DNA of 33,044 nucleotides from Myxococcales bacterium (GTDB lineage: Bacteria; Myxococcota; Myxococcia; Myxococcales; Anaeromyxobacteraceae), in contig JAJXVM010000004.1 of assembly GCA_021782135.1 (NCBI GenBank), positions 1 to 33,044 on the forward strand, written 5' to 3'. Of the stretch, positions 8,844-28,183 are shown in pieces (within the stretch, counting starts at the first letter, position 1; each line of letters begins with the position of its first letter). The position numbers and the translations under genes were made by a program. The notes beneath the pieces are model-generated. The model made no database searches and had not been told where the DNA came from. It worked only from the letters and a program-made list of their open reading frames with translations.

Positions 8844-9839
8844 ATGCTCCTCGAGACGCTCACTTCCCTGCTCGCCGCCGCGGCGCTGGCCGCGGCTCCG
8901 TACAACCCGGGGACCGCCGCCAAGGGGGTCTGGATCTACGACCTCTCGGACAGCAGCGGCCCCGTGCCGTCCACCTGGGCTTCGCTGGCCTACGACACGA
9001 AGCACCACGAGCTCTACGTCACCGACCGCTCCGACGGGTCGGTCGGGGTGTTCAACGACGCGGGCATGGAGGTCTACCGGTTCGGGGCCGACGAGGAGTT
9101 GGGCACGATCGTCGACGTGGCGCCGCTCGAGGAGGGCGACCTGGCGGTGCTGGCGAGCCAGAAGGGACGGCCGGTGCTGTGGCGCTGCAACTTCCGCGGG
9201 GAGCGGAAGGCCCGCATCTCCATGGACAAACTGCCGCCCGAGTTCGCGAACGGCTTCTTCCCCGATCGAGCGGTGGCGCGGGGGAAGCGGCTCTACCTGG
9301 CCGAGCGCGGGGCCATGAAGGTCGCGGTCCTCGGGCTGGACGGCGCCGTCGAGGAGACGCACGACTTCTTCCACCAGCTCGAGCTCGACAAGCTGAAGAG
9401 CGCGCGGGGCGGCATTCCCGCGATGCAGGCCTTCAACGTGGACGAGGCCGGCAACATCCTCTTCACCGTGGCTCCGATGTTCCGGGCCTTCATCATCAGC
9501 CCCTCGGGGTCGGTCACCTCGTTCGGCGAGCGGGGCGGCTCGCCGGGCAGGTTCAACGTCGTCGGCGGGATCACCCGCGACTCCTCGGGCCGGCTGATCA
9601 TCGGCGACGTGCTCCGGTGCGTGGTGATGGTCTTCACGCCGGACCTGGAGTTCCGGGGGGAGTTTGGGGGCCGCGGGTGGGGGCCGGGTGACCTGATCGC
9701 GCCCCTCGACGTCGCTTTCGGGAACGGGCTGGTCTTCGTCTCCCAGAGCGCACGGCGGGGCGTGAGCGTCTATCGCCTGACCGTCCAGGAGCCGACGGCG
9801 CCGCCCGCGGCCGCGCCCGCGCCGGCCGCGGCGCGCTGA
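8844..9839 (+). CDS. Secreted NHL-type beta-propeller protein
   Basis: 331 residues. MLLETLTSLLAAAALAAAPY is a signal peptide. The mature protein has repeated propeller-blade motifs such as HHELYVTDRSDGSVGVFNDAG, KRLYLAERGAMKVAVLG, GNILFTVAP, SGRLIIGDVLRCVVMVF and NGLVFVSQSARRGVSVY, about six blades of the NHL/SMP-30 type. The C-terminus is an Ala/Pro tail. There is no CXXCH, so it does not bind c-heme. NHL propellers commonly act as extracytoplasmic binding scaffolds. Its position just before an OmcS-like gene, and the presence of a second propeller at the far end of the locus, suggest a role in cytochrome assembly or export. The start at ATG 8844 rather than GTG 8826 follows from the signal peptide and the -10-like hexamer. 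Confidence 0.82.
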   Translation: MLLETLTSLLAAAALAAAPYNPGTAAKGVWIYDLSDSSGPVPSTWASLAYDTKHHELYVTDRSDGSVGVFNDAGMEVYRFGADEELGTIVDVAPLEEGDLAVLASQKGRPVLWRCNFRGERKARISMDKLPPEFANGFFPDRAVARGKRLYLAERGAMKVAVLGLDGAVEETHDFFHQLELDKLKSARGGIPAMQAFNVDEAGNILFTVAPMFRAFIISPSGSVTSFGERGGSPGRFNVVGGITRDSSGRLIIGDVLRCVVMVFTPDLEFRGEFGGRGWGPGDLIAPLDVAFGNGLVFVSQSARRGVSVYRLTVQEPTAPPAAAPAPAAAR

Positions 9840-9873
9840 AGCAGCCCGCTCAACTCCCAGGATCCTGTGAGTT

Positions 9874-9891
9874 TCCGGCCTCGGGGCCGGA
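9874..9891 (+). terminator. GC-rich stem-loop after the propeller gene
   Basis: TCCGGCC-TCGG-GGCCGGA is a perfect 7-bp stem 34 nt after the stop codon. No T-tract follows, so it may be a Rho-dependent stop or a 3' stabiliser rather than a classical intrinsic terminator. Confidence 0.3.
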
Positions 9892-10167
9892 CGCGTGGCC
9901 GCGCCGTTTCGACGGCCGCTCGCCGGTGGTTGCGTGTCCCACCACCACCCACACCCAGCCACAACCACGGACCCGTGACTCGAGCTCTCGCATGGTGATC
10001 CAATCCGGTCACCCGTTTGGGGGCAACTGAGCGCGGACGGGCCTCTGTCGCCTGAATCAGGGACATGCCGCATACCGTTTCAGCTGACACGAAATTGGTC
10101 ATCATGCCGGTCGCCAGGGCGCCGACGAAGCGAGCCCGGGCCGGGCCTGGTCTGGTGGTCGCGAGGG

Positions 10168-10195
10168 CGAAGCTGGGGGCTTTCACCCAGCTTCG
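10168..10195 (+). promoter_or_regulatory. 10-bp inverted repeat upstream of the sigma-54 element (candidate activator site)
   Basis: CGAAGCTGGG and CCCAGCTTCG form a perfect inverted repeat with an 8-nt spacer, centred about 75 bp before the predicted transcription start of the OmcS-like gene. Sigma-54 promoters need an enhancer-binding protein at upstream dyad sites, so this is a candidate; alternatively it is an RNA hairpin. The remaining gap sequence, 9892-10167, shows no gene and only a loose 7-bp repeat pair (GTGGTTG at 9926, CAACCAC at 9962). Confidence 0.35.
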
Positions 10196-10230
10196 ATCGG
10201 GAAAAACCGAGCGTTTACAGCGGCTCCGAG

Positions 10231-10246
10231 TGGCGCGCAGGATGCA
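10231..10246 (+). promoter_or_regulatory. Sigma-54 (RpoN) -24/-12 promoter of the OmcS-like gene
   Basis: TGGCGCGCAGGATGCA matches the RpoN consensus TGGCACG-N4-TTGCA at all but two positions, with the required GG-N10-GC spacing (GG 10232-10233, GC 10244-10245). The expected start is near 10257, leaving a leader of about 76 nt. The sequence is almost identical to the element at 17290 in the same locus, which argues against chance. Confidence 0.65.
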
Positions 10247-10260
10247 ACGTGCTGCGGCGT

Positions 10261-10303
10261 CGCGTCGCTCCGGTTCTCCCAGGAACACCGCCGGAGCGAC
10301 GCG
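10261..10303 (+). other. 13-bp stem-loop at the predicted 5' end of the OmcS-like mRNA
   Basis: CGCGTCGCTCCGG (10261-10273) pairs perfectly with CCGGAGCGACGCG (10291-10303) around a 17-nt loop. It starts about 4 nt after the predicted transcription start. A run of A, not T, follows, so it is not a plus-strand intrinsic terminator. A 5'-terminal hairpin that stabilises an abundant mRNA is the simplest reading. Confidence 0.6.
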
Positions 10304-10332
10304 AAAAACCGCAGCTTGGAGGATCAACCACA

Positions 10333-11745
10333 ATGAAGGCGCTCAGATACGCAGTCGCCGTGGTCGCCTCGCTTGCCTTCGGCAATGCGTGGGCGTTCCA
10401 CGATGGCGGCGTCGCTTACTGCGATGGCTGCCACTCGATGCACAACTCGTCGGGCAACAAGTTCATGTCGGGCGGCCGGAACACCGGCCTCACCGGCTGG
10501 AACGCGCTCGGCGCGGCTTCCACCACCCAGTTCCAGGGCAACAAGTTCCTGCTCCAGGGCTCGGACGACAGCTCGACCTGCCTCAACTGCCACGCCGCCG
10601 CCGACAAGGCGCCCAGCGGCTACCACGTGATGACCTTCCCGGCCCCGGCGGCCGGCACGGCGCCGGTGGAGCGGACCCCGGGCGGCGACTTCGCCTGGCT
10701 GACGGTCTCCACCACCGCGACGGCCAGCTACGGCGCCCCCATCAGCAACAAGGGCGAGCGCCACGGCCACAACGTCGTCGCCCAGGACTACGGCCTGGTC
10801 GCCGACAGCACCCTGCTCACCGCTCCGGGCGGCCAGTATGACGCCACCAAGCTGAGCTGCGCCTCCTGCCACGACCCGCACAGCCGCGCCCGCGTGGTCG
10901 ACGCCAACGGGACGATCGCCTACCCGTCGCTCCCGAACGGCTCCACTCCCGGCAGCAACGTCCTGCCCATCGGCAGCTCCGGCTCCTACGGCGCCACCGC
11001 GAGCGGCAGCGAGGCCGTGGGCGTGTACCGCCTCCTCGGCGGCGCGAACTACTCGCAGATGTCCTACACCAACCCGCTGCCCTTCAACGCCAACCCGCCG
11101 ATCGCGGTGGCTCCGTCGACCTACAACCGGTCTGAGAGCGTGACCGAGACCCGCGTGGCCTACGGCCAGGGCATGTCCGAGTGGTGCTCCAACTGCCACC
11201 GCTCGATCCACAACGACAACACCAACACCTCCAACACCGCGCTCATCCACCCGGCCGGCAACGGCGCCAAGCTGACCGCCACCGCCAACGACCTGGCCGG
11301 CAACGCCAACGGCACCACCATCGCCGCCATCTACAATGCGTACGTCGCCTCGGGCAACCTGACCAACACCCAGGCCTCGTCCTACACCTCCCTCGTCCCG
11401 TACGAGGAGGGCACCAACGTGATCGCCACCCTGGCCGGCCACGCGGTGAACGATGGCTCGCAGAAGAGCGGCCCGCAGACCGGCAGCGAGAACGTGATGT
11501 GCCTCTCCTGCCACCGCGCGCACGCTTCCGGTTGGTCCAGCATGACCCGCTGGAACAACCAGGCCGAGTTCATCACCATCGGCGGCGCCTACCCCGGCAC
11601 CGACGCGACCGGCGAGGGCACCTACGGCCAGTACAACCTGGGCTACACCACGGTTCAGGTCACGGCGGCCCTCTACGATCGCCCGGCGACCAACTTTGCC
11701 TACGCGCAGCGGTCCCTCTGCAACAAGTGCCACGCCAAGGATTAA
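10333..11745 (+). CDS. omcS-like: OmcS-like hexaheme c-type cytochrome, probable extracellular nanowire subunit
   Basis: 470 residues. The signal peptide ends at AWA, giving a mature N-terminus FHDGGVAYCDGCHSMHNS that aligns without gaps with my recollection of mature Geobacter OmcS. Six CXXCH motifs are present (CDGCH, CLNCH, CASCH, CSNCH, CLSCH, CNKCH). Shared blocks include YGQGMSEWC.NCH, HPAGNGAK, CLSCHRAHASG..SMTR and a final LCNKCHAKD. Distal His candidates are kept (FH, SMH, YH, GHN, DPH, SIH, GHA, RAH), including His16 of the mature chain, which in OmcS ligates a heme of the neighbouring subunit. It is about 40 residues longer than OmcS. ATG 10333 has GGAGG 11 nt upstream; the track start at 10249 precedes the predicted transcription start. 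A sigma-54 element lies upstream and a strong terminator downstream, so it is probably monocistronic. Confidence 0.93.
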   Translation: MKALRYAVAVVASLAFGNAWAFHDGGVAYCDGCHSMHNSSGNKFMSGGRNTGLTGWNALGAASTTQFQGNKFLLQGSDDSSTCLNCHAAADKAPSGYHVMTFPAPAAGTAPVERTPGGDFAWLTVSTTATASYGAPISNKGERHGHNVVAQDYGLVADSTLLTAPGGQYDATKLSCASCHDPHSRARVVDANGTIAYPSLPNGSTPGSNVLPIGSSGSYGATASGSEAVGVYRLLGGANYSQMSYTNPLPFNANPPIAVAPSTYNRSESVTETRVAYGQGMSEWCSNCHRSIHNDNTNTSNTALIHPAGNGAKLTATANDLAGNANGTTIAAIYNAYVASGNLTNTQASSYTSLVPYEEGTNVIATLAGHAVNDGSQKSGPQTGSENVMCLSCHRAHASGWSSMTRWNNQAEFITIGGAYPGTDATGEGTYGQYNLGYTTVQVTAALYDRPATNFAYAQRSLCNKCHAKD

Positions 11746-11773
11746 CGCGCGGTACGTAGTCGGTTGACGGGGA

Positions 11774-11808
11774 GGGGGGTCGCGACGTTGCGGCCCCCCT
11801 TTTCCTTT
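11774..11808 (+). terminator. Intrinsic terminator after the OmcS-like gene
   Basis: GGGGGGTCGC and GCGGCCCCCC form a 10-bp stem with one G-U pair and a GACGTT loop, followed by TTTTCCTTT. It begins 28 nt after the stop codon. It would end most transcripts and set the barrel operon at a lower level unless that has its own promoter. Confidence 0.85.
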
Positions 11809-11834
11809 GCGCCTGACACGAGGAGATACGGAAA

Positions 11835-13244
11835 GTGAAACTCGCGCGCCTGTGGCTCCTCGCCTTTCTGCTGTCCGGCTGTGGTCTCCTCACTCCGCGC
11901 CCGAGCGGCCGTCCGCCGCTGACGGATCAGGGCGCGCTCTTCCTCTATCTCGAGCCCTGGCCCGACGGCGCCGGCCGGCTCTCCGTCACGCTCTCGTCGG
12001 TGACCGCGGTGCGCTCGGACGGCGTGCCGGTTCCGCTGGAGCTCGCCCTGACCGACCTCCCCGGCCCGGACGCGAAGCGCCAGCGGCTGCTCGCGTCGGC
12101 GCAGCTGCCGCCTGGCGCCTACCGCGGCCTGGAGGTCACGGCGGCCCGGGCCCGGGTGATCGGCGGCGAGGGCCCGGCGGACCTGCTGATCGGCAAGGAG
12201 CCGACCTCGCTGGAGGCGCCCTTCGAGATCGCCGCCGGCCAGGCCAAGGTGCTCACGCTGACGCTCCGGTACGAGGCCTCCCTCCCCGCGGGCGTGACCT
12301 TCGTCCCCCGGTTCCTGGTCGGGACCCCGCCGCGCCCGCCGCCCATCCTGTACGGCTTCTGCTCCAACACCAACGAGAACACCCTGACGCTCTTCGAGCG
12401 CCGCCAGCACGAGGTCTTCCGGGTGCTGGCCACCGGGCGGGCGCCCCGCGGGCTCGCCCTGGGGAGCCCCCCCAGCACGCGCCTCTTCGTCGCGGTGGAG
12501 CGCGAGGACGAGATCCAGCCGTTCGAGATCACCGGCGACCTGCCGCTCCCGCCGCTCAAGCTGGTCCCCGGGGACCGGCCCTGGGAGGTGGCGCTCTCGC
12601 CGGACGCCCGGACCCTGCTGGTGCTGAACAACGGCTCCAACTCGCTCGCCTTCCTCGACGCCGCGAGCGGCGCCGAGCGCGGGCGGGTCGCGGTGGGCAT
12701 CTCGCCGATCTCGCTCCTCGTCGATCGCTCCTGGCGCCGCGCCTACGTCCTCAACGACGTGTCCAGCAGCATCACGGTGGTCGACCTGGCCACCCGCAAG
12801 GTGTTCGGCTCGATCCCCACCGGCGCCGGACCGCTCCGGGCGCAGCTCAACCGCGCCGGGGACAAGCTGTACGTGATCGCCTCCGGCTCTCCGCAGCTGC
12901 AGGTCTTCTCGGTCCCGGCGTTCACCATGACCAGCCAGATCACCATCGGGCTGGGCGCCACGGCGCTGAAGGTCGATCCGCGCACCGACCTGGTCTACGT
13001 GGCCAAGCAGGGCGAGCACCGGGTCTACGTCTACGACTCCTTCTCGCTCATCCCCATCGACTCGATCGACCTGCCGGGAGACGCCAGCTGGTTCGCCATC
13101 GACGACACCGAGAACGCCCTTCTCGCGCTCATGCCCTCCCTGCGCGGGGTGGCGGCCGTGGATCTCGCCAGCCACCGGGTGCTGGGCGTGATCCCGGTGG
13201 GGGACGAGCCGTACGAGGTCACGGTCGCCGACGAGAGGTACTGA
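11835..13244 (+). CDS. Beta-propeller lipoprotein (YVTN-type) with N-terminal beta-sandwich domain
   Basis: 469 residues starting at GTG with GAGGAG about 10 nt upstream. The lipobox LLSGC near residue 16 predicts a lipid-anchored protein. Residues about 30-165 (ALFLYLEPWPDG, LSSVTAVRSDGVPVPLEL, LPPGAYRGLEVTAARARV) resemble a DUF4382-type beta-sandwich. From about 175 there are 40-residue YVTN-like blades: PWEVALSPDARTLLVLNNGS, AYVLNDVSSSITVVDLATRKV, GDKLYVIASGSPQLQVFSV, LVYVAKQGEHRVYVYDS. No heme motif is present. It is the first gene behind the terminator and is followed after 7 bp by the barrel gene, so it probably sits at the outer membrane with it. Function inferred as an assembly or surface-attachment factor. 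Confidence 0.8.
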   Translation: MKLARLWLLAFLLSGCGLLTPRPSGRPPLTDQGALFLYLEPWPDGAGRLSVTLSSVTAVRSDGVPVPLELALTDLPGPDAKRQRLLASAQLPPGAYRGLEVTAARARVIGGEGPADLLIGKEPTSLEAPFEIAAGQAKVLTLTLRYEASLPAGVTFVPRFLVGTPPRPPPILYGFCSNTNENTLTLFERRQHEVFRVLATGRAPRGLALGSPPSTRLFVAVEREDEIQPFEITGDLPLPPLKLVPGDRPWEVALSPDARTLLVLNNGSNSLAFLDAASGAERGRVAVGISPISLLVDRSWRRAYVLNDVSSSITVVDLATRKVFGSIPTGAGPLRAQLNRAGDKLYVIASGSPQLQVFSVPAFTMTSQITIGLGATALKVDPRTDLVYVAKQGEHRVYVYDSFSLIPIDSIDLPGDASWFAIDDTENALLALMPSLRGVAAVDLASHRVLGVIPVGDEPYEVTVADERY

Positions 13245-13251
13245 GAGGCTC

Positions 13252-15447
13252 GTGATTCACCGGCGCCCAGGTCCGCTCGTCGCGCTGGCGCTGGCTCTGG
13301 CGCCCTCCGCCGCGCTGGCCGACGGGATCTCGGCCTACCTGCAGCCCGAGTACGATCACGTGGACACGCGCAGCACCGACAGCACCGGCCGGACCACCCA
13401 GTCGTCCAGCGACGAGCTCCTCCAGCAGTACGTGCTCGGCCTGTCCCAGACGCTGGCGCCCCTGCTGCACTTCGACGCCAACGGGACCTTCAACGACCAG
13501 CGGGCCTGGACCACCCAGGATCAGGTGCCCTCCCGGTCCGACTCCTGGTCGGGCTCCGGCAGCGCGCGGCTCCACATCGGGCCCCCCGTGCTCGGCGGGG
13601 ATCTCAGCTACCAGCGCTCGGAGGACTCGACCGGGAGCTCCCTCAGCCCCGCCACCCTCCACGAGGTGAACGAAGCCTACAGCCTGCACCTCGGCTGGCA
13701 CCCGGCCGACATGCCCGACCTCGACGTGCTCGCGACGCGAGGGGACAACTACGACGTGGGCAAGCAGTACATGGACGTGGTCAGCGACGACGTGCTCACC
13801 ACCCTGACCTACAACGGCTGGAAGCAGCTGCGGGTCCAGTACAGCGTGGAGTACCAGAAGGTCGCCGACGAGCTGCACGCCTCGACCACCACCAGCCTCC
13901 TCAACGCCGGGCGGCTCAGCTACGCCGACAGCTTCGACGGCGGGCGCACCAGCGTGCAGGCCAACTACGACTTCATGAACCGGCTCGCGGACACCTCGAC
14001 CGCGGGGGTGGGGGGCATGGTGTCGACGCAGCAGCTCCCCGCGGCGGGGCTCTCGCTGGTGGACCAGCCGACGACCCTGCCGCAGACCGACACCCTCCAG
14101 CAGAACGGGCTGCTGGTGGACGGCAAGACCGACGTCTCCGCCGGCATCAACCTGGGCTGGTCGATCGGGCTCGCCGGCGACACCAACGCCCGCGAGCTCG
14201 GGGTCCAGTTCTCGGACCCGACCACCCAGCTCAACACCGTCTACGTCTACGTCTCGCAGACCTTGCCGCTCGACGTCTCGTCGGCCTTCACCTTCACCGC
14301 CTGGACCAGCGACGACAACGTCAACTGGACCTCGGTCCCGCTCGCCGCGGCGACGGTCTTCAACACCCTCCTGCGCCGCTTCGAGGTCACCCTCGCCAAG
14401 GTCCAGGCCCGGTACGTGAAGCTGATCACCTACCCCATCGCGCCCGCGGTCAGCACCGACCGCCGCTACTCCGACATCTTCGTGACCGAGCTGCAGACCT
14501 ACCTGGTGGTCCCGGCGGAGTCGGTCCGCGGGCGGAGCTCCCTCACCTCGCAGGACGTCTCGGTCGCCCTGCGCCGGCAGCTCTTCTCCGAGCCGCTGGT
14601 GGCCTACGACTTCGCGGCGAACGGCTCCTACAGCGCCGGGAACGCCTCCTACACCATCCAGAACGGGGTCAGCTTCGACAAGGCGCTCGAGTCCTGGCTG
14701 CGGCTCTCCTCCCGCTTCGCCCGGATGGACTCGGGGATCCGGAACGAGGCCGGGCCGTCGGAGCACAACGGCGCCTGGCAGTACTCGGCCTCGCTGGTGA
14801 GCCGCCCCCTGGACACGCTCACCCAGTCCTTCACCTACAACGGGCAGCTCGCGCAGGACGTGCACGGCTCCTCGGCGTTCAACGCGGTCACCTTCGTGAA
14901 CCGTGCCTCGCTGTACCGCGGGGTGGACTTCCTCGTGTCCGCCGGCTACACGCAGAACTACCTCTCGAGCGGGGCGGTCTCGAGCGGGCCGCAGGTCGTG
15001 GCCACCGCCTCGCTGACGCCGAACAAGGTGGTCACGCTCTCGTCCACCTACACCTACTCCGGCCTCCACCAGGTCGGCGGCGGGCTGCCGGAGAGCGAAC
15101 TGGACGACGAGCGGCTCGACGGCTCGGTCTCGATCACTCCGTTCCGCGCCCTCTTCCTGTCGGCCTCGGTGCAGCGGGTGATCAAGGGCGCGCGCCCGAC
15201 CACGCTCGCCAGCGCGAGCGCCTCGTTCACGCCGTTCCCCGACGGGGACCTGCTGCTCCGCTCCTCGTACACCGACTCCCTCGACACCTCGCTCGACGCC
15301 CGGACGCAGCTCGGCACCGCCGGGCTGCGCTGGACGATCTCCACCCACGCCTACGTCGACGTAAACTACACGCTGCTCGACGCGGCCGCCCCCGAAGGCA
15401 CGACGCAGACCAAGACCTTCACGGCCAGCCTGTCCGTGCAGCTCTGA
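13252..15447 (+). CDS. Outer-membrane beta-barrel protein, candidate electron-conduit porin, with galactose-binding-like insert
   Basis: 731 residues. The signal peptide ends at ALA-DG. Most of the mature chain alternates hydrophobic and polar residues in amphipathic strands rich in Tyr/Ser/Thr (LLHFDANGTFNDQ, LRVQYSVEYQKV, FLVSAGYTQNYL, VVTLSSTYTYSGL), and the C-terminus YVDVNYTLL...FTASLSVQL ends like a barrel strand. Residues about 270-420 differ: TVYVYVSQ, FTFTAWTSDDNVNWTSV, RFEVTLAKVQARYVKLITYP and FVTELQTYL resemble an F5/8-type (discoidin, galactose-binding-like) domain, probably exposed. It has no CXXCH. Its place among multiheme cytochromes suggests the barrel of a porin-cytochrome conduit. 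The gene overlaps no neighbour: it starts 7 bp after the propeller lipoprotein and ends 9 bp before the next. Confidence 0.78.
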   Translation: MIHRRPGPLVALALALAPSAALADGISAYLQPEYDHVDTRSTDSTGRTTQSSSDELLQQYVLGLSQTLAPLLHFDANGTFNDQRAWTTQDQVPSRSDSWSGSGSARLHIGPPVLGGDLSYQRSEDSTGSSLSPATLHEVNEAYSLHLGWHPADMPDLDVLATRGDNYDVGKQYMDVVSDDVLTTLTYNGWKQLRVQYSVEYQKVADELHASTTTSLLNAGRLSYADSFDGGRTSVQANYDFMNRLADTSTAGVGGMVSTQQLPAAGLSLVDQPTTLPQTDTLQQNGLLVDGKTDVSAGINLGWSIGLAGDTNARELGVQFSDPTTQLNTVYVYVSQTLPLDVSSAFTFTAWTSDDNVNWTSVPLAAATVFNTLLRRFEVTLAKVQARYVKLITYPIAPAVSTDRRYSDIFVTELQTYLVVPAESVRGRSSLTSQDVSVALRRQLFSEPLVAYDFAANGSYSAGNASYTIQNGVSFDKALESWLRLSSRFARMDSGIRNEAGPSEHNGAWQYSASLVSRPLDTLTQSFTYNGQLAQDVHGSSAFNAVTFVNRASLYRGVDFLVSAGYTQNYLSSGAVSSGPQVVATASLTPNKVVTLSSTYTYSGLHQVGGGLPESELDDERLDGSVSITPFRALFLSASVQRVIKGARPTTLASASASFTPFPDGDLLLRSSYTDSLDTSLDARTQLGTAGLRWTISTHAYVDVNYTLLDAAAPEGTTQTKTFTASLSVQL

Positions 15448-15456
15448 AGAGGAACC

Positions 15457-16029
15457 ATGCGAGCTCGCCCGTCCCATCTCCTGGTCGTCGCGGCGCTGGC
15501 GCTCCTGGCCGGTTGCGCCGGCAGCGGCGGCAACTACCACGACCCCAACATGGACTTCGGCTCGGTGAAGACGGTCGCGGTGCTCCCGTTCACCAACCTG
15601 TCCCGCGACTCCGCCGGGGCCGAGCGGGTGCGCGACGTCTTCGTCAACATGCTGCTCGCCAGCGGGTCGATCTACGTCCTGCCGAACGGCGAGGTGGCGC
15701 GCGGCCTGAACCGCCTCGGCGTGCAGAACGCCGCCAACCCCAGCGTGGAGGAGCTGACGAAGCTGGGGAGCTTCCTTAAGTGCGACGCGATCATCGGGGG
15801 GGTGGTCAAGGAGTACGGCGAGGTCCACTCGGGCAACGCCGCCGCCAACGTGGTCTCGGCGAGCGTGCAGATGTTCGAGTCGGCGAGCGGCCGGGTGATC
15901 TGGTCGGCGTCGTCCACCAAGGGCGGCATCTCGCTCACGGACCGGATGTTCGGCGGGGGCGGGGTGCCGGCGAACGACGTGACGGAGTCCCTCGTCAATG
16001 ACCTGCTGGACCGGCTCTTCAAGCAGTAG
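15457..16029 (+). CDS. GNA1162/CsgG-like outer-membrane lipoprotein
   Basis: 190 residues with GAGG just upstream of the ATG and a clear lipobox, LLAGC, near residue 20. The mature part VKTVAVLPFTNLSRDSAGAERVRDVF, LPNGEVARGLNRLGV, LGSFLKCDAIIGGVVKEYGE and SASVQMFESASGRVIWSAS follows the GNA1162 (DUF799) / CsgG / LpoB-type pattern: an opening VLPF.N strand, a helix, and a D.II.G...Y hairpin. CsgG forms the outer-membrane channel that exports curli subunits; GNA1162 proteins are related by fold, but their role is not established. The next gene overlaps its 3' end by 32 nt and encodes two more domains of this general type. Confidence 0.75.
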   Translation: MRARPSHLLVVAALALLAGCAGSGGNYHDPNMDFGSVKTVAVLPFTNLSRDSAGAERVRDVFVNMLLASGSIYVLPNGEVARGLNRLGVQNAANPSVEELTKLGSFLKCDAIIGGVVKEYGEVHSGNAAANVVSASVQMFESASGRVIWSASSTKGGISLTDRMFGGGGVPANDVTESLVNDLLDRLFKQ

Positions 16030-17170
16030 CCGCGCCGGGCGGGCGGTCGCGCTCGTGCTGACGTCGCTGGTGGCGTGCGCCTCGGCGCGCCCGGCCGGCG
16101 CGCCCGCGGCGTCCGGCGGGGGCGCGAGGGCGTTCCGGGTGGCGGTGCTCCCGGCCGACAGCCTCTCGTCCGGGCCGGTGCCGCTGCGGGCGGTCACCAC
16201 GCAGGTGGAGCGCGCCATGGAGGCGGCCGGCCTGAAGGTGGTCGGCGGAGACGCCGTCGAGGCCTACCTCGAGAACCACCGGCTGCGCTTCACCGGCGGC
16301 GTGGACGGTCCGGCGGCGGCGGCGGCGCGCGGGGAGCTCGGAGTGGACGGGCTGCTCATCACCACCGTCGAGGAGCACGAGCTGGAGGGCCCGCCGCGGC
16401 TGGCGATCACCTTCCGGCTCGTCTCGGCGTCCGAGGACGCGCGCATCCTCTGGACCGACGGCTTCGGCCGCGCCGGCGACGACGCGCCCGGCCTGCTCGG
16501 GCTCGGGGTGGTGCGCGACTACCGCCGCCTCGAGGCGCGGGAGCTGGTCCGCATGGCCCGGTCCCTGACGCTGGCGCTCGACGGCCGTGGCCCGCGCGCG
16601 CCGCCCTGCCCCGCCGAAGGGCGCTTCGAGCCGAGCGTGCTCTACCGCTCCCCGGACTTCCAGCCCGCGGGCAGGTACTCGGTCGCGGTGCTCCCGTTCG
16701 TCAACGAGACGTCGCGGCGCCGGGCCGGCGACCTGCTGGCGCTCGAGCTGACTCGCCAGCTCGCCGGGATCGGGCGGCTGCGGGTGATCGAGCCCGGCGT
16801 CACCCGCGACCGGCTCATCCACTACCGGGTCATCATGGAGGGCGGGGTCTCCCTCGACACGGCCCGGGTGACGCTCGAGACGGTGGGCGCGGACCTGGTG
16901 ATCGCCGGGTACGTGCGCGAGCTGTCGGAGGGCGCCGATCCCTCGCTCGAGTACACCGCGCTCGCGCTCGACCGATCGGGAAAGATGGTCTGGCAGGCCA
17001 CCTCCCACGGCAACGGCTCGGCGGGAGTCTGGTTCTTCGACTGGTCCATGATCGGCTCGGCGAGCCAGCTCGCGTGCCGGTTGGCCCGGGGCTCGGCGGT
17101 GTCTCTCTTCGGAGAGGGCGACACCGGCGGGACGGAGGTGGCGCTGCCGGCGAAGGGGGGGAAGCAATGA
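15998..17170 (+). CDS. Two-domain CsgG/GNA1162-like lipoprotein
   Basis: 390 residues from ATG 15998, which overlaps the previous gene by 32 nt and implies translational coupling. The N-terminus has the lipobox LVAC near residue 25. Two related domains follow. The first, about 45-170, begins FRVAVLPADSLSSG and contains LGVDGLLITTVEEHEL and DARILWTDGF. The second, about 225-370, begins YSVAVLPFVNETSRRRAGDLLALELTRQL and contains LRVIEPGV, VGADLVIAGYVRELSEG and SGKMVWQATSHG. This is the same fold pattern as the neighbouring lipoprotein. There is no membrane span beyond the signal. A downstream in-frame GTG could also be the start. It is the last gene of this unit, since a sigma-54 element begins 120 bp later. 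Confidence 0.65.
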   Translation: MTCWTGSSSSSRAGRAVALVLTSLVACASARPAGAPAASGGGARAFRVAVLPADSLSSGPVPLRAVTTQVERAMEAAGLKVVGGDAVEAYLENHRLRFTGGVDGPAAAAARGELGVDGLLITTVEEHELEGPPRLAITFRLVSASEDARILWTDGFGRAGDDAPGLLGLGVVRDYRRLEARELVRMARSLTLALDGRGPRAPPCPAEGRFEPSVLYRSPDFQPAGRYSVAVLPFVNETSRRRAGDLLALELTRQLAGIGRLRVIEPGVTRDRLIHYRVIMEGGVSLDTARVTLETVGADLVIAGYVRELSEGADPSLEYTALALDRSGKMVWQATSHGNGSAGVWFFDWSMIGSASQLACRLARGSAVSLFGEGDTGGTEVALPAKGGKQ

Positions 17171-17235
17171 TTGCGCAGAATCAACCAGCGCGCCGAGGCC
17201 GCTGCAACTCTTGCGTCCCGCGTTCATGGGCGCCC

Positions 17236-17258
17236 GGCGGAGTTCCGCGCGCTCCGCC
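17236..17258 (+). promoter_or_regulatory. 7-bp inverted repeat upstream of the second sigma-54 element
   Basis: GGCGGAG (17236-17242) and CTCCGCC (17252-17258) flank a 9-nt spacer, centred about 70 bp before the predicted start. The placement resembles the inverted repeat before the first sigma-54 element, but the sequence differs. Candidate activator site, or chance in GC-rich DNA. Confidence 0.22.
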
Positions 17259-17289
17259 AGAATTCGCTGGAACCTCACGCCCCCAACCG

Positions 17290-17305
17290 GGGCACGAGGG
17301 ATGCA
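17290..17305 (+). promoter_or_regulatory. Sigma-54 (RpoN) -24/-12 promoter of the prolyl isomerase-cytochrome operon
   Basis: GGGCACGAGGGATGCA matches TGGCACG-N4-TTGCA with two mismatches and exact GG-N10-GC spacing (GG 17291-17292, GC 17303-17304). The expected start is near 17316, a leader of about 57 nt. The element is nearly the same as that at 10231 (shared GGC.CG..GGATGCAA). It lies inside the track's upstream extension of the isomerase ORF, showing that the extension is non-coding. Confidence 0.68.
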
Positions 17306-17317
17306 AACGTCCATCGG

Positions 17318-17336
17318 GCCACACGAATCGTGTGGC
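17318..17336 (+). other. 8-bp stem-loop at the predicted 5' end of the isomerase-cytochrome mRNA
   Basis: GCCACACG pairs perfectly with CGTGTGGC around AAT. It begins about 2 nt after the predicted sigma-54 start and repeats the arrangement before the OmcS-like gene, although the sequence is different. No T-tract follows. Confidence 0.55.
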
Positions 17337-17372
17337 TGCCGGCGCGAGGCGACCGGCGAAAGGAAGTGGATC

Positions 17373-19118
17373 GTGAATCGACGGATCGCCGTGGCAACCG
17401 CCCTGCTCGGGCTCGCCGCTCCCGCGTTCGCCGCTCCGGCGGCCAGCTCCGCCCCGGCGGCTCCCGCGCCGAGGCCGGCGACGGCCTCCGCCGGGCAGGG
17501 CGACATGCGCGCCTTCCTGGTCCGCGACGGCCGCGAGGCGCAGGTGCCGCTCTTCTCGCCCGACGCGCTCACCCTGGCGGTGGCGCGGGTGGACGACGAG
17601 GAGATCACGCTCCAGCAGCTGACCGACGCGCTCCTCACCGCGCACCGCGCCGGCCACTCCGGCGAGACCAGCCAGCACGACTTCCGGCCGGTGCTCGACC
17701 GGCTCATCGACATGAAGCTCTGCGTCCTCGAGGCGCGCGAGATGGGGCTCGACGAGCTGCCCGAGGTGAAGCGGGCGATCCAGGACGAGGAGACGAGCCA
17801 GCTCCTGCTGCGCGTCCGCGCCGCGGCGGTGAAGGACGTGAAGGCCGACCCGGCGGAGGTGGAGCGCCTGTACCGGGACGCGGTCCGCGAGTACCTGATC
17901 CGCTCCCTCCTGTTCCGCGCCGAGGGCGACGCCAAGACCTTCCAGAAGGCGCTCGCGGCCGGCGGGGACTTCGAGGCGCTCGGGAAGAAGAGCATCGACG
18001 CCAAGAAGGCCGTCGGGAGCATGGCCCCCGGGTACGTCGGGCTCGGCGGCATGAAGCCCGAGGTGGCGAAGGCGGTGGCCGGCGCCGCCGCCAAGGCGGT
18101 CCGGCTGGTGAAGCTGCCCGACGGCTGGACGGTGGTGCAGGTGGCCGGCATCCGCTACCCCGAGAAGCCCGAGGAGCGCGCGCGCGCCCAGGAGAAGGCG
18201 CTCGAGGGGGCCAAGCAGCGCGTGGCCATCAGGTACTACGAGGTGCTCGCGAAGCAGCACGCGCACGTCGACAAGAAGCTGGTGAGGAAGCTCGACCTGG
18301 AGGCGAAGAGGCCGGGCCTGGCGGCGCTCCGCAAGGACCCCCGCCCGCTGGCCACCATCGACGGCGAGCCGCCGCTCACGGTGGCCGACCTGCTCCGAGG
18401 CATGGAGGGCAAGTTCTTCCACGGGCTCGAGGCGCCGGTGAAGGAGCACCGCGCCAACGCGGCCAAGGAGGAGGTGCTCCACGTCCTGCTGCGCAAGCGG
18501 CTGGTGCTGGCCGAGGCGCGCCGCCAGAAGATCGCCGAGAGCGTGGAGTTCCGGCGCTACATGGCCGAGTTCACCGACGCCACCCTCTTCAGCGCCTACG
18601 TCGAGCGCGCGGTCATGCCCGACGTGAAGGTGACCGACCAGGAGGGGCGCGCCTACTACGAGAAGCACAAGGCCGAGTTCGCCACCCCGGCCATGTACAA
18701 GCTCGAGAGCCTCACCTTCTCCAGCGCCGCCGACGCGCAGCGCGCCTACGACAAGCTCCGCGCCGGCACCGACTTCAAGTGGCTGCGGTCCAACGCCGGC
18801 GGGCAGGTGAAGGAGGATCTGCGCAAGGCGCAGCTCGACGACGCGGTGGTGAGCGCCGGCGCCATCCCGCCGGAGCTGGCGAACCAGCTCCAGGGCGCCA
18901 AGACGGGGGACTGCCGGCTGCAGGAGATCGACGGCCAGTTCTTCCTGATCCGGCTCGTGAGCGCCACCCCGGGGAGCCAGCAGCCCTACCAGGCGGCGCG
19001 GTCGGCCATCGGGAAGAAGCTCGTGATCGAGGACCTGAACAAGGCGCTCAAGGACTCGACGGCCAAGATCCGCATGGCGCACAAGGTCAGCGTCTACCTG
19101 ACCCGCATCGGCCACTAG
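17373..19118 (+). CDS. Periplasmic parvulin-type peptidyl-prolyl isomerase / SurA-like chaperone
   Basis: 581 residues from GTG 17373, preceded by AAAGGAAG and starting a signal peptide MNRRIAVATALLGLAAPAFA. The track start at 17211 lies upstream of the predicted transcription start. After an Ala/Pro linker, VARVDDEEITLQQLTDALL...LDRLIDMKLCVLEAREMG is a SurA-type N-terminal chaperone region. Two parvulin-like modules follow: about 165-265 (IRSLLFRAEGDAKTFQKAL...DFEALGKKS, GYVGLGGM, DGWTVVQVAGI) and about 430-530 (YKLESLTFSSAADAQRAYDKL, GQFFLIRLVS), with a second chaperone region between. It probably folds cytochromes or barrel proteins in the periplasm. It heads the operon and ends 29 bp before the 26-heme gene. 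I recall prolyl isomerases being encoded near omcS in Geobacter (not checked). Confidence 0.85.
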   Translation: MNRRIAVATALLGLAAPAFAAPAASSAPAAPAPRPATASAGQGDMRAFLVRDGREAQVPLFSPDALTLAVARVDDEEITLQQLTDALLTAHRAGHSGETSQHDFRPVLDRLIDMKLCVLEAREMGLDELPEVKRAIQDEETSQLLLRVRAAAVKDVKADPAEVERLYRDAVREYLIRSLLFRAEGDAKTFQKALAAGGDFEALGKKSIDAKKAVGSMAPGYVGLGGMKPEVAKAVAGAAAKAVRLVKLPDGWTVVQVAGIRYPEKPEERARAQEKALEGAKQRVAIRYYEVLAKQHAHVDKKLVRKLDLEAKRPGLAALRKDPRPLATIDGEPPLTVADLLRGMEGKFFHGLEAPVKEHRANAAKEEVLHVLLRKRLVLAEARRQKIAESVEFRRYMAEFTDATLFSAYVERAVMPDVKVTDQEGRAYYEKHKAEFATPAMYKLESLTFSSAADAQRAYDKLRAGTDFKWLRSNAGGQVKEDLRKAQLDDAVVSAGAIPPELANQLQGAKTGDCRLQEIDGQFFLIRLVSATPGSQQPYQAARSAIGKKLVIEDLNKALKDSTAKIRMAHKVSVYLTRIGH

Positions 19119-19147
19119 CGCCGCGCACCCGCGGAGAAGAGGCGACC

Positions 19148-21100
19148 GTGAACAAGCTCGAGAATCGGTGGGTGGTCCTCCTGGTGGGCGCGCTGGCGGC
19201 GGGGCTGGCGCTCTCGCCCGTCCGCGCCGGCGCGGCGGAGCGGAAGTTCAAGACCAAGGGCTGCGCGGACTGCCACCAGAAGGCGGTCGAGAAGTTCAAG
19301 GAGGCGAAGTTCGCCCACGCCGCGGTCAAGGACCAGAAGTGCGAGGCCTGCCACCTGCGCCACGGCACGGTGGGCAAGCTGCTGCTGAAGCAGCAGGGGA
19401 ACGCCCTCTGCTACTCCTGCCACAAGCGGGACGCGATCGGGATGGACAAGCCGGTGGTGCACAAGGTGCTCCGCAGCGGCTCCTGCACCCAGTGCCACGA
19501 TCCGCACGGCTCGCAGGCCCCGCACCTCCTCAAGGCGGAGGGCGCGGAGGCCTGCTTCGGCTGCCACGCCCGCGAGCCGTTCCAGCGCAAGACGGTCCAC
19601 GCCGTCCTGAAGAGCGGCTGCGCCTCCTGCCACGCCGCGCACGCCTCCTCGGTCCCGAACCTCCTCGTCGCCGATCAGGCGAAGCTCTGCGCCCAGTGCC
19701 ACGCCTCGAACGGCGCCTTCCAGAAGGCGCACGGCGGCTACCCGGTCACCACCTGCACCGGCTGCCACGACCCGCACTCGTCCGACGGTCCCAAGCTGCT
19801 CAAGCCGACCGTGCACAACCCGGTGGCCAGCCAGTCCTGCGACGCCTGCCACGTGCCGGCCGGCTCGCCCAAGCCGTTCGCGGTCCAGGCCACCGGCTTC
19901 AAGCTCTGCGAGACCTGCCACGACGCCAAGGACTTCTCCGGCAAGGTCCAGCACGCGCCGGTGAAGAAGGGCGAGTGCCTCTCCTGCCACGACCCGCACG
20001 CCTCCGCCACGCCCAAGCTGGCGCGCGCGGCCGGCGCGCAGCTCTGCGTGCGCTGCCACAAGCGCTTCGCCGACGCGCCCGCCGTGCCGCACAAGCCGAT
20101 GAGCTCGCCCGAGGGCTGCCGCTCCTGCCACCAGGTCCACGCCTCGGCGAACGCCAAGCTCCTCAAGCAGCCCGCCGACCAGATCTGCGGCTCCTGCCAC
20201 GCCAAGGTGAAGGAGGAGGCGGCCAAGAAGAAGGTGGTCCACCCGGCCTTCCTGGCCGGCGACTGCGGCTCCTGCCACGACCCCCACGGCGCCGCCACCC
20301 GCAACCTCTTCAAGGCCCGCGCCGACCAGGTCTGCTACTCGTGCCACCGCGACGAGGAGACGCGGTTCGTCAAGGTGCACACCCACCGGCCGGTGCAGGA
20401 CGGCAACTGCACCGCCTGCCACGACGGCCACGCCTCGGACAACCCCAAGCTGCTCAGGGCGACCGGGTCCAAGCTCTGCGAGGGCTGCCACTCGCAGCTG
20501 TTCAAGCCGCTCGGGGACGGCGAGGTGGCCCACAAGCCGTTCGCCGAGGGCAAGTGCCTCGACTGCCACGACCCGCACGGCTCGAACGCGCCGGGGATGG
20601 TCCGGACCGACCAGAAGTCGCTCTGCCTGGGCTGCCACACCGCCGCGGCGAAGCAGCTCGACGGCGCGAAGAGCATCCACCCCGCGTTCTCGCAGGGCGA
20701 GTGCTCCAAGTGCCACAACCCCCACCGGTCCAGCATGAAGAAGCTGCTGCTGGCCTCCCCGCCCGACCTCTGCTTCGCCTGCCACAAGGCCATGAAGGCC
20801 CGCATCGACGGGCTGAAGCAGCACGCGCCGGTCGGCGACTGCCTCACCTGCCACAGGCCGCACGCCTCGGACCAGCCGAAGCTGGCGGCGGAGGCGGGCT
20901 CGGCGCTCTGCCTGCAGTGCCACGACGGCGCGGAGAAGACCTTCGCCGCCGCCCACCTCGGCATCGACCCCAAGGTGATCCGCTGCGTGAGCTGCCACGA
21001 CCCCCACGCGTCCAAGGACCCGAAGTTCTTCAAGCCCAACCAGCACGCGCCCTTCGCCGGCGGCCAGTGCGACGCCTGCCACGCCGTGGCCGGGAAGTAG
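19148..21100 (+). CDS. 26-heme periplasmic/outer-membrane c-type cytochrome
   Basis: 650 residues from GTG 19148; the much longer track ORF (from 17171) is a frame extension through the isomerase gene. Signal peptide NRWVVLLVGALAAGLALSPVRAGA. I count 26 CXXCH motifs from CADCH to the terminal CDACH. They come in pairs about 45 residues apart: an LC..CH site, then a C..CHDPHAS or C..CHDPHGS site, followed by a KLL-containing strand and a further His (HAP, HKP, HPA). This is the doubled-CXXCH architecture and implies growth by duplication of a di-heme unit about 13 times. No porin or binding domain is visible. The likely role is long-range electron transfer through the periplasm or across the barrel to the OmcS-like filament. 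The 16-heme gene follows after 12 bp. Confidence 0.93.
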   Translation: MNKLENRWVVLLVGALAAGLALSPVRAGAAERKFKTKGCADCHQKAVEKFKEAKFAHAAVKDQKCEACHLRHGTVGKLLLKQQGNALCYSCHKRDAIGMDKPVVHKVLRSGSCTQCHDPHGSQAPHLLKAEGAEACFGCHAREPFQRKTVHAVLKSGCASCHAAHASSVPNLLVADQAKLCAQCHASNGAFQKAHGGYPVTTCTGCHDPHSSDGPKLLKPTVHNPVASQSCDACHVPAGSPKPFAVQATGFKLCETCHDAKDFSGKVQHAPVKKGECLSCHDPHASATPKLARAAGAQLCVRCHKRFADAPAVPHKPMSSPEGCRSCHQVHASANAKLLKQPADQICGSCHAKVKEEAAKKKVVHPAFLAGDCGSCHDPHGAATRNLFKARADQVCYSCHRDEETRFVKVHTHRPVQDGNCTACHDGHASDNPKLLRATGSKLCEGCHSQLFKPLGDGEVAHKPFAEGKCLDCHDPHGSNAPGMVRTDQKSLCLGCHTAAAKQLDGAKSIHPAFSQGECSKCHNPHRSSMKKLLLASPPDLCFACHKAMKARIDGLKQHAPVGDCLTCHRPHASDQPKLAAEAGSALCLQCHDGAEKTFAAAHLGIDPKVIRCVSCHDPHASKDPKFFKPNQHAPFAGGQCDACHAVAGK

Positions 21101-21112
21101 GAGGCGGACCTC

Positions 21113-22375
21113 ATGCGCTCGCGGATTCTCCTGGCCCTCCTCGCCGTCCTCCTCCTCCCCCCCGCCCGGGCGCTGGCCGCGCCCGACCCCTTCAAGCTCA
21201 AGCCCGGCGCCGACGGCAAGGTCTGCCTGGGCTGCCACTCGGGTGAGCTCGACCCGGTGCTCAAGAAGCCGTTCGTGCACACGCCGGTGAAGTCGCGGAA
21301 CTGCGTCGGCTGCCACAGCCCGCACGCCGCCAACCACGGCAAGATGCTCGCCGACGAGCCCGGCAAGATCTGCGCGAGCTGCCACGACGTGGTCCCGGCC
21401 AAGCCCAAGAGCACGCACGAGCCGGTGGAGAGCGGCTGCACCACCTGCCACGATCCCCACGCCTCGAACTTCAAGAACAACCTGGTGAAGGCGCCGCAGG
21501 ACCTGTGCGCGGGCTGCCACAAGCCGGTGCTGCAGACCGCGACCGACGCGAAGTTCAAGCACTACCCGGTGCAGCAGGACTGCACCACCTGCCACGACCC
21601 GCACGGCTCGGCCAGCTCCGCCTCGCTGCTCAAATCGGCGGTGCCGCAGCTCTGCGTCGGCTGCCACAAGATGAACCGGCCCAACCTGGTCGCCAAGCAC
21701 CAGGGCTACCCGGTGGCGACGGCGCGCTGCACCGCCTGCCACGACCCGCACGGCTCGAACGTGCGCGGCATGCTCTACGACCACGTGCACCCGCCGGTGG
21801 CCAAGGCGATGTGCGGCCAGTGCCACGAGCCGCCCGGCTCGCCCAAGGGCTTCCAGCCCAAGCTCGCCGGGGTGGCGCTCTGCAAGGGCTGCCACGCGCA
21901 GAAGGTCAACTCGATGCTCGACCGCAACCGGGTGCACTGGGCGGTGCTGGGCGGCGACTCCTGCCTCGGCTGCCACAGCCCCCACGCCGGCAAGGACAAG
22001 GGGATGGTGAAGGGCAACATGGTGACCGTCTGCGGCGCCTGCCACGCCGACACCATCAAGCGCCAGGCGCTCTCCGAGACCAAGCACAAGCCCATCTCCG
22101 ACGGGCAGTGCACCAAGTGCCACGATCCGCACGGCTCGAGCGCGCCGCTCCTGCTGGTGAAGCCGGACGCCATCGAGCTCTGCGGCACCTGCCACGACTG
22201 GCAGAAGCACTCCACCCACCCGCTGGGCCCGAGCCACAAGGACCCGCGCAACCAGAACCTGACGCTCAACTGCCTGAGCTGCCACCGCGCGCACGGGACC
22301 GAGTACAAGCACATGAACCCGTTCCCCACGACGACCGAGCTCTGCACCAAGTGCCACGCGAGCTTCCGGAGGTGA
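21113..22375 (+). CDS. 16-heme c-type cytochrome
   Basis: 420 residues with GAGG about 8 nt before the ATG and signal peptide LLALLAVLLLPPARALA. I count 16 CXXCH motifs from CLGCH to the terminal CTKCH. It has the same alternating pattern as the preceding gene, LC.GCH sites followed by C..CHDPHGS or C..CHSPHA sites, about eight di-heme units, so the two are paralogues. Distal His candidates recur as HTP, HEP, HYP, HQGYP and HKP. It sits between the 26-heme gene (12 bp before) and the second propeller, whose start overlaps the ribosome-binding region at its 3' end. A partner of the 26-heme protein in a conduit across periplasm and outer membrane is inferred. Confidence 0.93.
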   Translation: MRSRILLALLAVLLLPPARALAAPDPFKLKPGADGKVCLGCHSGELDPVLKKPFVHTPVKSRNCVGCHSPHAANHGKMLADEPGKICASCHDVVPAKPKSTHEPVESGCTTCHDPHASNFKNNLVKAPQDLCAGCHKPVLQTATDAKFKHYPVQQDCTTCHDPHGSASSASLLKSAVPQLCVGCHKMNRPNLVAKHQGYPVATARCTACHDPHGSNVRGMLYDHVHPPVAKAMCGQCHEPPGSPKGFQPKLAGVALCKGCHAQKVNSMLDRNRVHWAVLGGDSCLGCHSPHAGKDKGMVKGNMVTVCGACHADTIKRQALSETKHKPISDGQCTKCHDPHGSSAPLLLVKPDAIELCGTCHDWQKHSTHPLGPSHKDPRNQNLTLNCLSCHRAHGTEYKHMNPFPTTTELCTKCHASFRR

Positions 22376-22379
22376 TGCC

Positions 22380-23267
22380 GTGTCCACGTCGATGAAGAGC
22401 GCCCTGGCGCTGCTCCTGCTCTGCGCCGCGCCCGCCGCGCGGGCCGACATCGCCCTCGTCTCCCGCGGGCCGGTGTACGCCGACGCCAAGGCCGTTCCGT
22501 TCCAGGCGCCCGAGGGGGTGGCCTGCAGCGACGGCGGCCTGGTGGTGGCCGACACCGGCAACGGCCGGCTGGTCCGGTTCGACTGGAAGGACGGGGTGGT
22601 GAGCGGCGGGACCGAGATCAAGCTCGCGCAGCTCACCTACCCGATCCGCCTCCAGCTCGACTCGAAGGGAGACCTCCTGGTGCTCGACCGCAGGGCGAAG
22701 CGCATCGCCCGGCTCGACCCCAAGGGCGCCTTCCAGGGGTGGGTGGATCCCAAGGGCGCCGCCAACGTGGTCCCGCTCGCCTTCAAGGTGGACGCCGCCG
22801 ACGCCCTCTACGTCCTCGACCAGACCTCGGGGTCGGTCCTGGTCCTCGACGCCTCCGGCGCCGTGACCCGCACCGTGCCGCTGCCGAAGCGGCCGGCGAT
22901 CTTCGTGGACCTGGCGGTGGACGGGGCCGGCACCATCTACGCCCTCGACGCCGCCGGCTCGGAGGTCTGGTCGGTGGAGAAGGCCGGCGCCGAGTTCAAG
23001 CCGCTCTCGAAGGGGCTGAAGGACGCGATGAGCTTCCCGTCCTACCTCACCACCGACGGCAAGGGCGCGCTCCTCGTCAGCGACCAGAACGGCAACGGCA
23101 TCGTGCTGCTCGGGATCGACGGCAGCTACCTCGGCCGCCGGCTCTCGATCGGCTGGAGCGAGGGCGCGGTCTACTACCCCGTCCAGCTCTGCCTCACGCC
23201 GTCCGGCGAGCTGGCGGTGGCCGACCGAGGCAACAATCGGATCGACCTCTTCACCGTGACCCGCTAG
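22380..23267 (+). CDS. Secreted NHL-type beta-propeller protein (second copy in locus)
   Basis: 295 residues from GTG 22380. A perfect GGAGGTGAT Shine-Dalgarno lies over the stop of the previous gene, so translation is coupled. Signal peptide MKSALALLLLCAAPAARA. Blades of the NHL type are clear: GGLVVADTGNGRLVRFDWKDG, GDLLVLDRRAKRIARLDPKG, DALYVLDQTSGSVLVLDASG, GTIYALDAAGSEVWSVEKAG, GALLVSDQNGNGIVLLGIDG, GELAVADRGNNRIDLF, giving six blades with no extra domain or heme site. It is the last gene of the sigma-54 operon. With the propeller at 8844 it brackets the cytochrome locus, and the two may do related jobs in assembly. No catalytic residues can be assigned. Confidence 0.85.
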   Translation: MSTSMKSALALLLLCAAPAARADIALVSRGPVYADAKAVPFQAPEGVACSDGGLVVADTGNGRLVRFDWKDGVVSGGTEIKLAQLTYPIRLQLDSKGDLLVLDRRAKRIARLDPKGAFQGWVDPKGAANVVPLAFKVDAADALYVLDQTSGSVLVLDASGAVTRTVPLPKRPAIFVDLAVDGAGTIYALDAAGSEVWSVEKAGAEFKPLSKGLKDAMSFPSYLTTDGKGALLVSDQNGNGIVLLGIDGSYLGRRLSIGWSEGAVYYPVQLCLTPSGELAVADRGNNRIDLFTVTR

Positions 23268-26407: not shown

Positions 26408-27037
26408 TCAGTCCGGCTCGCCGCGATCGTCCCCGGCCGCGGCCTCGCGGGGGCGCTCCCCCGGCGCCGAGCCCGGCTCCGGGTTCGGTTCGCTCGCTCG
26501 CGCGCCGTGCGCCTCGTGGACCACGGCCTGCACGGTGGAGAGCGCCAGCCCGAGCGTGCGCGCGGCCTGGCGCTGGCTGCAGAGCCCCACCGCGAGCGCC
26601 CAGCGCAGGTGGGCCCGCTCCTCCTGCGAGAGGCGGCCGCGCACGCGCCGATGCCCGGGCTCCTGCCGGTGCGCGTTCAGGTCGGCCCACACCTCCTGCT
26701 CGGAGCCCCAGGCCAGGTTCTCCGCCCGGTTGTTGTCCAGATCGCCGTCGATGTGACGGACCTGGCAGGACTCGTCCCAGGGCATGCCGTGAAAGGCGGC
26801 GCAGATGACGCGGGCCAGCGCCAGCGCCATCCGGCGGCCGTCGAGCTCGATGACCACGGTCCGGGAGCGCTGCCGGCGCGCGCCGCCCACCGGGTGCCAC
26901 TCGACGTACTTCCAGCGGCCGAAGCCCTTGTGGCGCAGGCGGGAGTAGATCCGGCCGTCCTCCCCCGCCATGTAGTCGGGGTTCCGGACCATGGGCAAGG
27001 GGGCCAGCCTCACGCCGGCCGCGGTTCGAATCTCCAC
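26408..27037 (-). CDS. HNH homing-type endonuclease with NUMOD4 and HTH regions (copy 1)
   Basis: 209 residues from GTG 27037, chosen because GGGGAAAGG lies upstream and similarity to the neighbouring paralogue begins here; the track start at 27121 adds 28 residues over an inverted repeat. NPDYMAGEDGRIYSR is a NUMOD4-like start. The HNH core is CQVRHIDGDLDNNRAENLAWG, with the His-x-Asp and Asn-Asn...Glu-Asn residues intact. About residues 140-180, LSQEERAHLRWALAVGLCSQRQAARTLGLALSTVQAVV, form a helix-turn-helix for DNA binding. The C-terminus is Glu/Pro/Ala-rich. No intron, intein or phage gene is next to it, so it looks like a free-standing chromosomal nuclease. It lies 245 bp downstream of a close paralogue on the same strand. 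Confidence 0.82.
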   Translation of the reverse strand: MEIRTAAGVRLAPLPMVRNPDYMAGEDGRIYSRLRHKGFGRWKYVEWHPVGGARRQRSRTVVIELDGRRMALALARVICAAFHGMPWDESCQVRHIDGDLDNNRAENLAWGSEQEVWADLNAHRQEPGHRRVRGRLSQEERAHLRWALAVGLCSQRQAARTLGLALSTVQAVVHEAHGARASEPNPEPGSAPGERPREAAAGDDRGEPD

Positions 27038-27094
27038 GCCGTCAACCTTTCCCCGTCCCTCACCCGCCGCGCCGCGGCGATTGCGAATTGCAAT

Positions 27095-27140
27095 ATGCAC
27101 ATGAAAGCCGAAGTCCGCCACCCATTTGGTGGATGTGCAT
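27095..27140. promoter_or_regulatory. Compound inverted repeat in the leader of HNH copy 1
   Basis: ATGCACAT (27095-27102) pairs perfectly with ATGTGCAT (27133-27140). Inside, CCACC-CATTT-GGTGG (27118-27132) forms a second stem flush with the 3' arm. The surrounding DNA is unusually AT-rich for this window. It could be an operator, a leader RNA structure, or a recognition site for the adjacent nuclease. The rest of the gap (27038-27281) shows nothing else. Confidence 0.35.
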
Positions 27141-27911: not shown

Positions 27912-28183
27912 CCCCGGGTCGGACGGAGGAAGGGATCGCGGCGAACCGGCTCGCGCCAACTTGGAGCGCCCCGCCGATCCCGCCGTCCGTGAACTCCGCC
28001 TCCCCCGCCGGACCGTCACCCGATTAGCCAAAGGCGTGCCAATCCCATCCTCCGGCGCCGCCGGTCGGCAGGGCGCTCGGGCGCAACCGATTTGTCATGT
28101 GAACACGCGGCGGGGCGCGTTGGAATGCCGTCCCGGGGCGTGCGCGATCCGGTCGCCGGAGCGCACACGATCCGACACCGTCG

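Follow-up and report, generated by a model that had tools for sequence, protein, structure and literature searches.

The window, i.e. the whole stretch of 33,044 nt that was analysed, carries an OmcS-type cytochrome cluster which is very probably expressed as two RpoN-transcribed units, each with its own site for an enhancer-binding protein (EBP), and most likely with two different EBPs. At the heart of it are two 16-mers, one before each unit (P1 and P2), which, as judged from sequence comparison, are almost certainly real sigma-54 (RpoN) promoters; use of the sites in the cell, EBP binding to the palindromes upstream, the number of two EBPs and the limits of the transcripts are inferences. 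The features, in their order along the window, are the following.

10173..10190, unstranded: predicted activator site of P1, palindrome CTGGGGGCTTTCACCCAG (bottom strand CTGGGTGAAAGCCCCCAG), conserved in related clusters at helically phased distances
10231..10246, plus strand: P1 -24/-12 element TGGCGCGCAGGATGCA, GG-N10-GC, 10/12 consensus positions
10333..11745, plus strand: omcS homologue, 470 aa, six CxxCH motifs; PDB 6ef8 OmcS, E=4.8e-105 over residues 22-470
11835..13244, plus strand: YncE-like beta-propeller protein, gene 2 of the P1 half; Pfam YNCE E=3.8e-13, synteny in 17 clusters
13252..15447, plus strand: exported 731-aa protein, probable outer-membrane protein, P1 half; syntenic
15457..16029, plus strand: GNA1162-like lipoprotein, P1 half; Pfam E=3.1e-08
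15998..17170, plus strand: second lipoprotein-like gene, last of the P1 half; syntenic in the clusters
17202..17216, unstranded: predicted activator site of P2, dyad CTGCAACTCTTGCGT, consensus GCGCAA-N3-TTGCGC, 9/12
17236..17258, unstranded: GC-rich inverted repeat GGCGGAG...CTCCGCC (arms 17236-17242 and 17252-17258), not conserved in the congener
17290..17305, plus strand: P2 -24/-12 element GGGCACGAGGGATGCA, GG-N10-GC, 10/12 consensus positions
17373..19118, plus strand: PpiC-type peptidyl-prolyl isomerase (PPIase), gene 1 of the P2 half, GTG start; Pfam Rotamase_2 E=1.1e-27
19115..21100, plus strand: many-heme c-type cytochrome, P2 half; Paired_CXXCH_1, 12 stretches, E=2.8e-152
21113..22375, plus strand: many-heme c-type cytochrome, P2 half; 16 CxxCH
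22380..23267, plus strand: NHL/beta-propeller protein, last syntenic gene of the P2 half; profile match and synteny

Like the OmcS nanowire cytochrome (PDB 6ef8, 6nef), the product of the gene at 10333-11745 has six CxxCH hemes and full-length OmcS homology, along almost the entire chain, which places it in the OmcS family. It is longer than the solved OmcS chain (470 aa against 407) and may likewise form filaments. The 731-aa protein (13252-15447) had no match in Pfam, and a family search with the lipoprotein-like gene at 15998-17170 gave none either. In the window, 202 bp of non-coding DNA separate the P1 half from the P2 half. Seventeen clusters, that of the window among them, share this gene order; they come from 14 genomes in the family plus one relative at the order level. 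A looser version of it is found at many OmcS-like loci in Geobacterales, Nitrospirota, other Desulfobacterota and others. The term 'isomerase/conduit operon', which the earlier note had used for the second half, fits only in part: besides the PPIase gene that half holds the genes of two many-heme cytochromes and of an NHL protein, but the gene of the probable outer-membrane protein lies in the P1 half.

Two neighbouring regions deserve mention. In the stretch of about 2 kb from a TPR gene to P1 (8219-10172), none of the ORFs checked looks convincingly like a coding frame, their third-position GC being low compared with about 95% or more in the host's genes; in some relatives, an NHL gene directly precedes omcS. 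On the minus strand, adjoining ORFs with an HNH_3 endonuclease domain (26408-27121 and 27282-28031) are unrelated to the cytochrome locus.

The host is a soil bacterium known from a metagenome-assembled genome of Anaeromyxobacteraceae (3.38 Mb in 375 contigs, 73% GC, 80.85% complete; the window is contig C79), with Anaeromyxobacter among its family-level relatives. It encodes rpoN (Sigma54_DBD E=2.5e-64, contig C206) and gives at least 37 matches to Sigma54_activat, the EBP domain; its RpoN and EBP capacity is ample.

As the earlier note had read, both 16-mers have the exact GG-N10-GC spacing and both stand in non-coding DNA before a gene of the cytochrome locus, P1 at 102 bp from the start codon of omcS (10333) and P2 at 83 bp from that of the PPIase gene (17373). 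Sigma-54 likeness was scored over the 12 positions of TGGCACG-N4-TTGCW; both elements of the window have ATGC where the consensus has TTGC. At each site the GG and GC 10 bp apart are accompanied by the wider consensus and an upstream dyad, in a genome with rpoN and EBP genes. A search of positions 9800-17500 for a sigma-70-like promoter found none. Pattern searches of the host's own 3.38-Mb assembly with the degenerate 16-mer GGCNCGNNGGATGCAA returned two exact matches, P1 and P2, both non-coding, so that the equal density inside genes named by the earlier note as counter-evidence was not found; the five matches with one mismatch, elsewhere in the assembly, were all inside open reading frames. 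When three mismatches are allowed, the pattern is as common in the window as in shuffles (16 found, 22 expected): the 16-mer itself is thus not evidence, and it is conservation that makes the case. The likeness of the two sites beyond the consensus, to which the earlier note had given weight, holds for the window's 16-mers but is mostly lost in the only congener, which has TGGCACAGCCGATGCT at the place of P1 and AGGCACACGCGATGCA at that of P2; since GATGC alone is common to P1 and P2 in each of the two species, the argument from near-identity is weak.

P1, a GG-N10-GC element before the omcS operon, is present in 17/17 aligned syntenic clusters, weakly in three of them; in relatives with an NHL gene ahead of omcS the promoter is found about 1.1 kb upstream, before that first gene. 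Of the inverted repeats that the earlier note had placed about 70-75 bp upstream of both predicted starts, the one at P1 proved to be conserved. Its consensus is CTGGG[T/G]G-N4-C[C/A]CCCAG and, in the window, it lies within a 10-bp inverted repeat (10168-10177/10186-10195) centred at about -75. The distances from the palindrome to the -24 in the 17 clusters are 58, 58, 69, 70, 79, 79, 79, 79, 80, 69, 89, 89, 89, 89, 89, 91 and 92 bp, i.e. steps of 58/69/79/89 bp which correspond to whole helical turns (p about 0.0002 on merged values), as expected because an activator must face the polymerase. In a joint test of palindrome and promoter, 15 of the 17 clusters reached the minimum p of 0.0025, beating all 400 dinucleotide shuffles; L066 and L067 were individually not significant, and the weaker P1 sites of L064, L066 and L067 were located post hoc. 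Exact matches to CTGGGTGAAANCCCCCAG were found solely upstream of omcS in the host's own genome (G000) and in the A. dehalogenans-type genomes G003, G016 and G019, in which the reversed pattern, used as a control, gave no match. Copies with two mismatches occur near other genes (L092 in G015:C105, L084 in G013:C12, L091 in G021:C146), the L092 copy with a multiheme cytochrome gene adjoining and a sigma-54-like site 100 bp further on; these are possible further members of the regulon.

P2 was found before the isomerase operon in 13 of the 17 clusters, with scores of 9-11/12, usually as [G/A]GGCACA..CGTTGCA and at 73-168 bp past the preceding stop codon, in a gap whose sequence has otherwise diverged. 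Both genomes of the window's genus are among the 13, as is a metagenome-assembled genome assigned to another family. The repeat that the earlier note had seen upstream of P2 (17236-17258) is real but not conserved; the conserved dyad lies further upstream. Nine clusters have it 85-90 bp from the -24, the three dehalogenans-type genomes at 76 bp and G057 at 67 bp, a spacing whose phasing is weaker than that of P1 (p about 0.05). In the window and its congener the dyad is weak (9/12) and alone is not significant. Tested together with the promoter against dinucleotide shuffles, it gave p values from 0.0025 to 0.0175 in 13/13 clusters. The four clusters without a usable P2 are paralogous and have all kept P1; in two of them a -24-like GGCACG is left while GA or GT stands in place of the -12 GC, and the dyad is 96-97 bp off, about one further turn. 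For each promoter the joint tests of nine representatives combine to a Fisher p of about 3e-13. This and the other p values are optimistic because the tested sequences themselves supplied the consensuses and come from related species, so that they are not independent samples.

A mechanism can be proposed from these data. RpoN-RNA polymerase would wait as a closed complex at P1 and P2. An EBP bound to the upstream palindrome, which lies 58-92 bp from the -24 at P1 and 67-90 bp from it at P2, would reach this complex through DNA looping and open it by ATP hydrolysis, with predicted transcription starts at about 10257 and 17316. P1 would drive the five genes from omcS to the second lipoprotein-like gene, and P2 the four from the PPIase gene to the NHL gene. 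As the P1 and P2 palindromes are unrelated, there would most likely be two different EBPs, one per palindrome. The filament subunit and the operon for assembly and electron feeding could then be tuned separately while both remain RpoN-dependent.

Would a single EBP suffice for both promoters, the P2 dyad being the site of another factor or an alternative form? We consider this unlikely, though worth keeping in mind. At L076, a paralogous cluster without a usable P2, a dyad of the GCGCAA...TTGCG type is present about 114 bp upstream of the -24 of P1, and L077 has a weaker one, which means that the two types of site can coexist at one promoter. However, the conserved palindromes of P1 and P2 differ in sequence and, in the window, that of P1 is not seen at P2, nor that of P2 at P1. 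The joint RpoN control put forward in the earlier note is thereby split: a sigma-54 promoter for each half is borne out by conservation, while a single activator and regulon is not, given the different palindromes and the four paralogous clusters that have P1 only. The two halves probably share the sigma factor and differ in their activators.

An improbable reading is that the omcS promoter alone is of the RpoN type, with P2 decayed or accessory and the second half expressed mainly by read-through from P1. The locus can evidently work without P2, since this element is lacking in the four paralogous clusters and generally outside Anaeromyxobacteraceae and one relative of the same order; moreover, no clear terminator turned up between the halves. 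Yet 13 clusters have kept both the dyad and a P2 of 9-11/12, and the gap measures about 200 bp in the window. Much less probable still is that the 16-mers are chance GG-N10-GC occurrences in GC-rich DNA and the promoters of another type: the shuffle-like frequency of the three-mismatch pattern and the poor conservation of the extra common letters would fit, but cross-species conservation, strand bias, spacing, helical phasing and the uniqueness of the exact matches in the genome all argue otherwise. Least credible is a shared structured leader RNA (riboswitch) made of GGATGCAA and the hairpins just downstream, for although the predicted leaders (10257-10332 and 17316-17372) fold better than shuffles (z -3.96 and -3.87), the hairpin sequences differ, the conservation is centred on the -24/-12 element, and Rfam searches at the gathering and a relaxed threshold gave only chance-like low-score matches, none at a family threshold. 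Strong hairpins do stand right after the predicted starts in both leaders and are possibly mRNA stabilisers or elements of translational control.

Candidates for the activators were also sought. The window contains no EBP gene, and none of the matches listed lies near the other clusters; over wider loci one was detected within about 10 kb in 2 of 76. In a phylogenetic profile, the EBPs of the congener (G001) served as queries against 13 genomes with P2 and five without. A 459-aa NtrC-type regulator of G001 had orthologues (78-88%) in 11 genomes of the first group, whereas the second group had none. Other EBPs of G001, too, have no orthologue in three omcS-less genomes. It was nevertheless rejected as the P2 activator: its profile tracks phylogeny, and in G001 and G000 (loci L281 and L282) its gene has that of a histidine kinase before it and nrfH/nrfA-like genes after it, so it is probably a regulator of nitrite reductase. 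At L283, the kinase frame beside an NtrC-type regulator bears a CxxCH motif.

Precedents are found in Geobacter sulfurreducens. Its RpoN regulon comprises operons with upstream GG-N10-GC elements, including genes for extracellular electron transfer, and its confirmed RpoN promoters match the consensus at 9-11 of 13 positions (Leang et al. 2009, PMC2725144); the elements described here, close to TTGGCACGGTTTTTGCT with 10/12 consensus positions, resemble them. What differs from that study, whose main text is without the name omcS, is the OmcS cluster, the pair of promoters and the two different palindromes. The omcS-omcT locus of that species has nearby genes for a sigma-54 response regulator, GSU2506, and a kinase, GSU2507 (PMC10599522). 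GSU2506 may be taken as a precedent, though not as a test, for an RpoN activator associated with an OmcS gene; the present locus differs in its gene order and in having no adjacent EBP gene among the matches listed. A literature search, largely outside subscription journals, found no paper on sigma-54 control of OmcS in Anaeromyxobacter. The system is of a known kind, and its regulatory assignment is a new one that the comparative data support well.

How far does the rule extend? At 64 OmcS-type loci outside the family, sites of at least 10/12 number 23 in the sense direction against 3 antisense in 85 kb upstream of omcS. Over the 1.4 kb upstream of the gene, the density is 0.27/kb sense, 0.035 antisense and about 0.03 downstream, figures that ignore kinship. 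The enrichment spans several phyla (loci L095-L170), and the sites concentrate in two zones: -1250 to -1000, often one gene (about 1.1-1.25 kb) ahead of omcS, and the last 250 bp. P2 was also considered as a feature of all OmcS clusters and dismissed as such: among the loci compared, it is confined to Anaeromyxobacteraceae and the one relative of the same order. As we read these data, the filament operon came under RpoN control long ago or has often regained it, and P2 would be a speciality of that family and its relative. A fuller scenario is plausible but should be held tentatively: an old RpoN rule for OmcS-type operons, spanning Myxococcota, Geobacterales, other Desulfobacterota, Nitrospirota and Acidobacteriota with lineage-specific activators, to which Anaeromyxobacteraceae would have added P2 with a different activator, uncoupling the maturation and electron-feeding operon from the filament subunit.

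How a cell decides to build cytochrome nanowires is poorly known. The present analysis yields two sharply defined predicted promoters and two enhancer motifs in a group with cultivated strains (e.g. A. oryzae, A. dehalogenans), from which the activators can therefore be fished out directly, and it points to a link between nanowire expression and sigma-54 signalling that reaches well beyond Geobacter.
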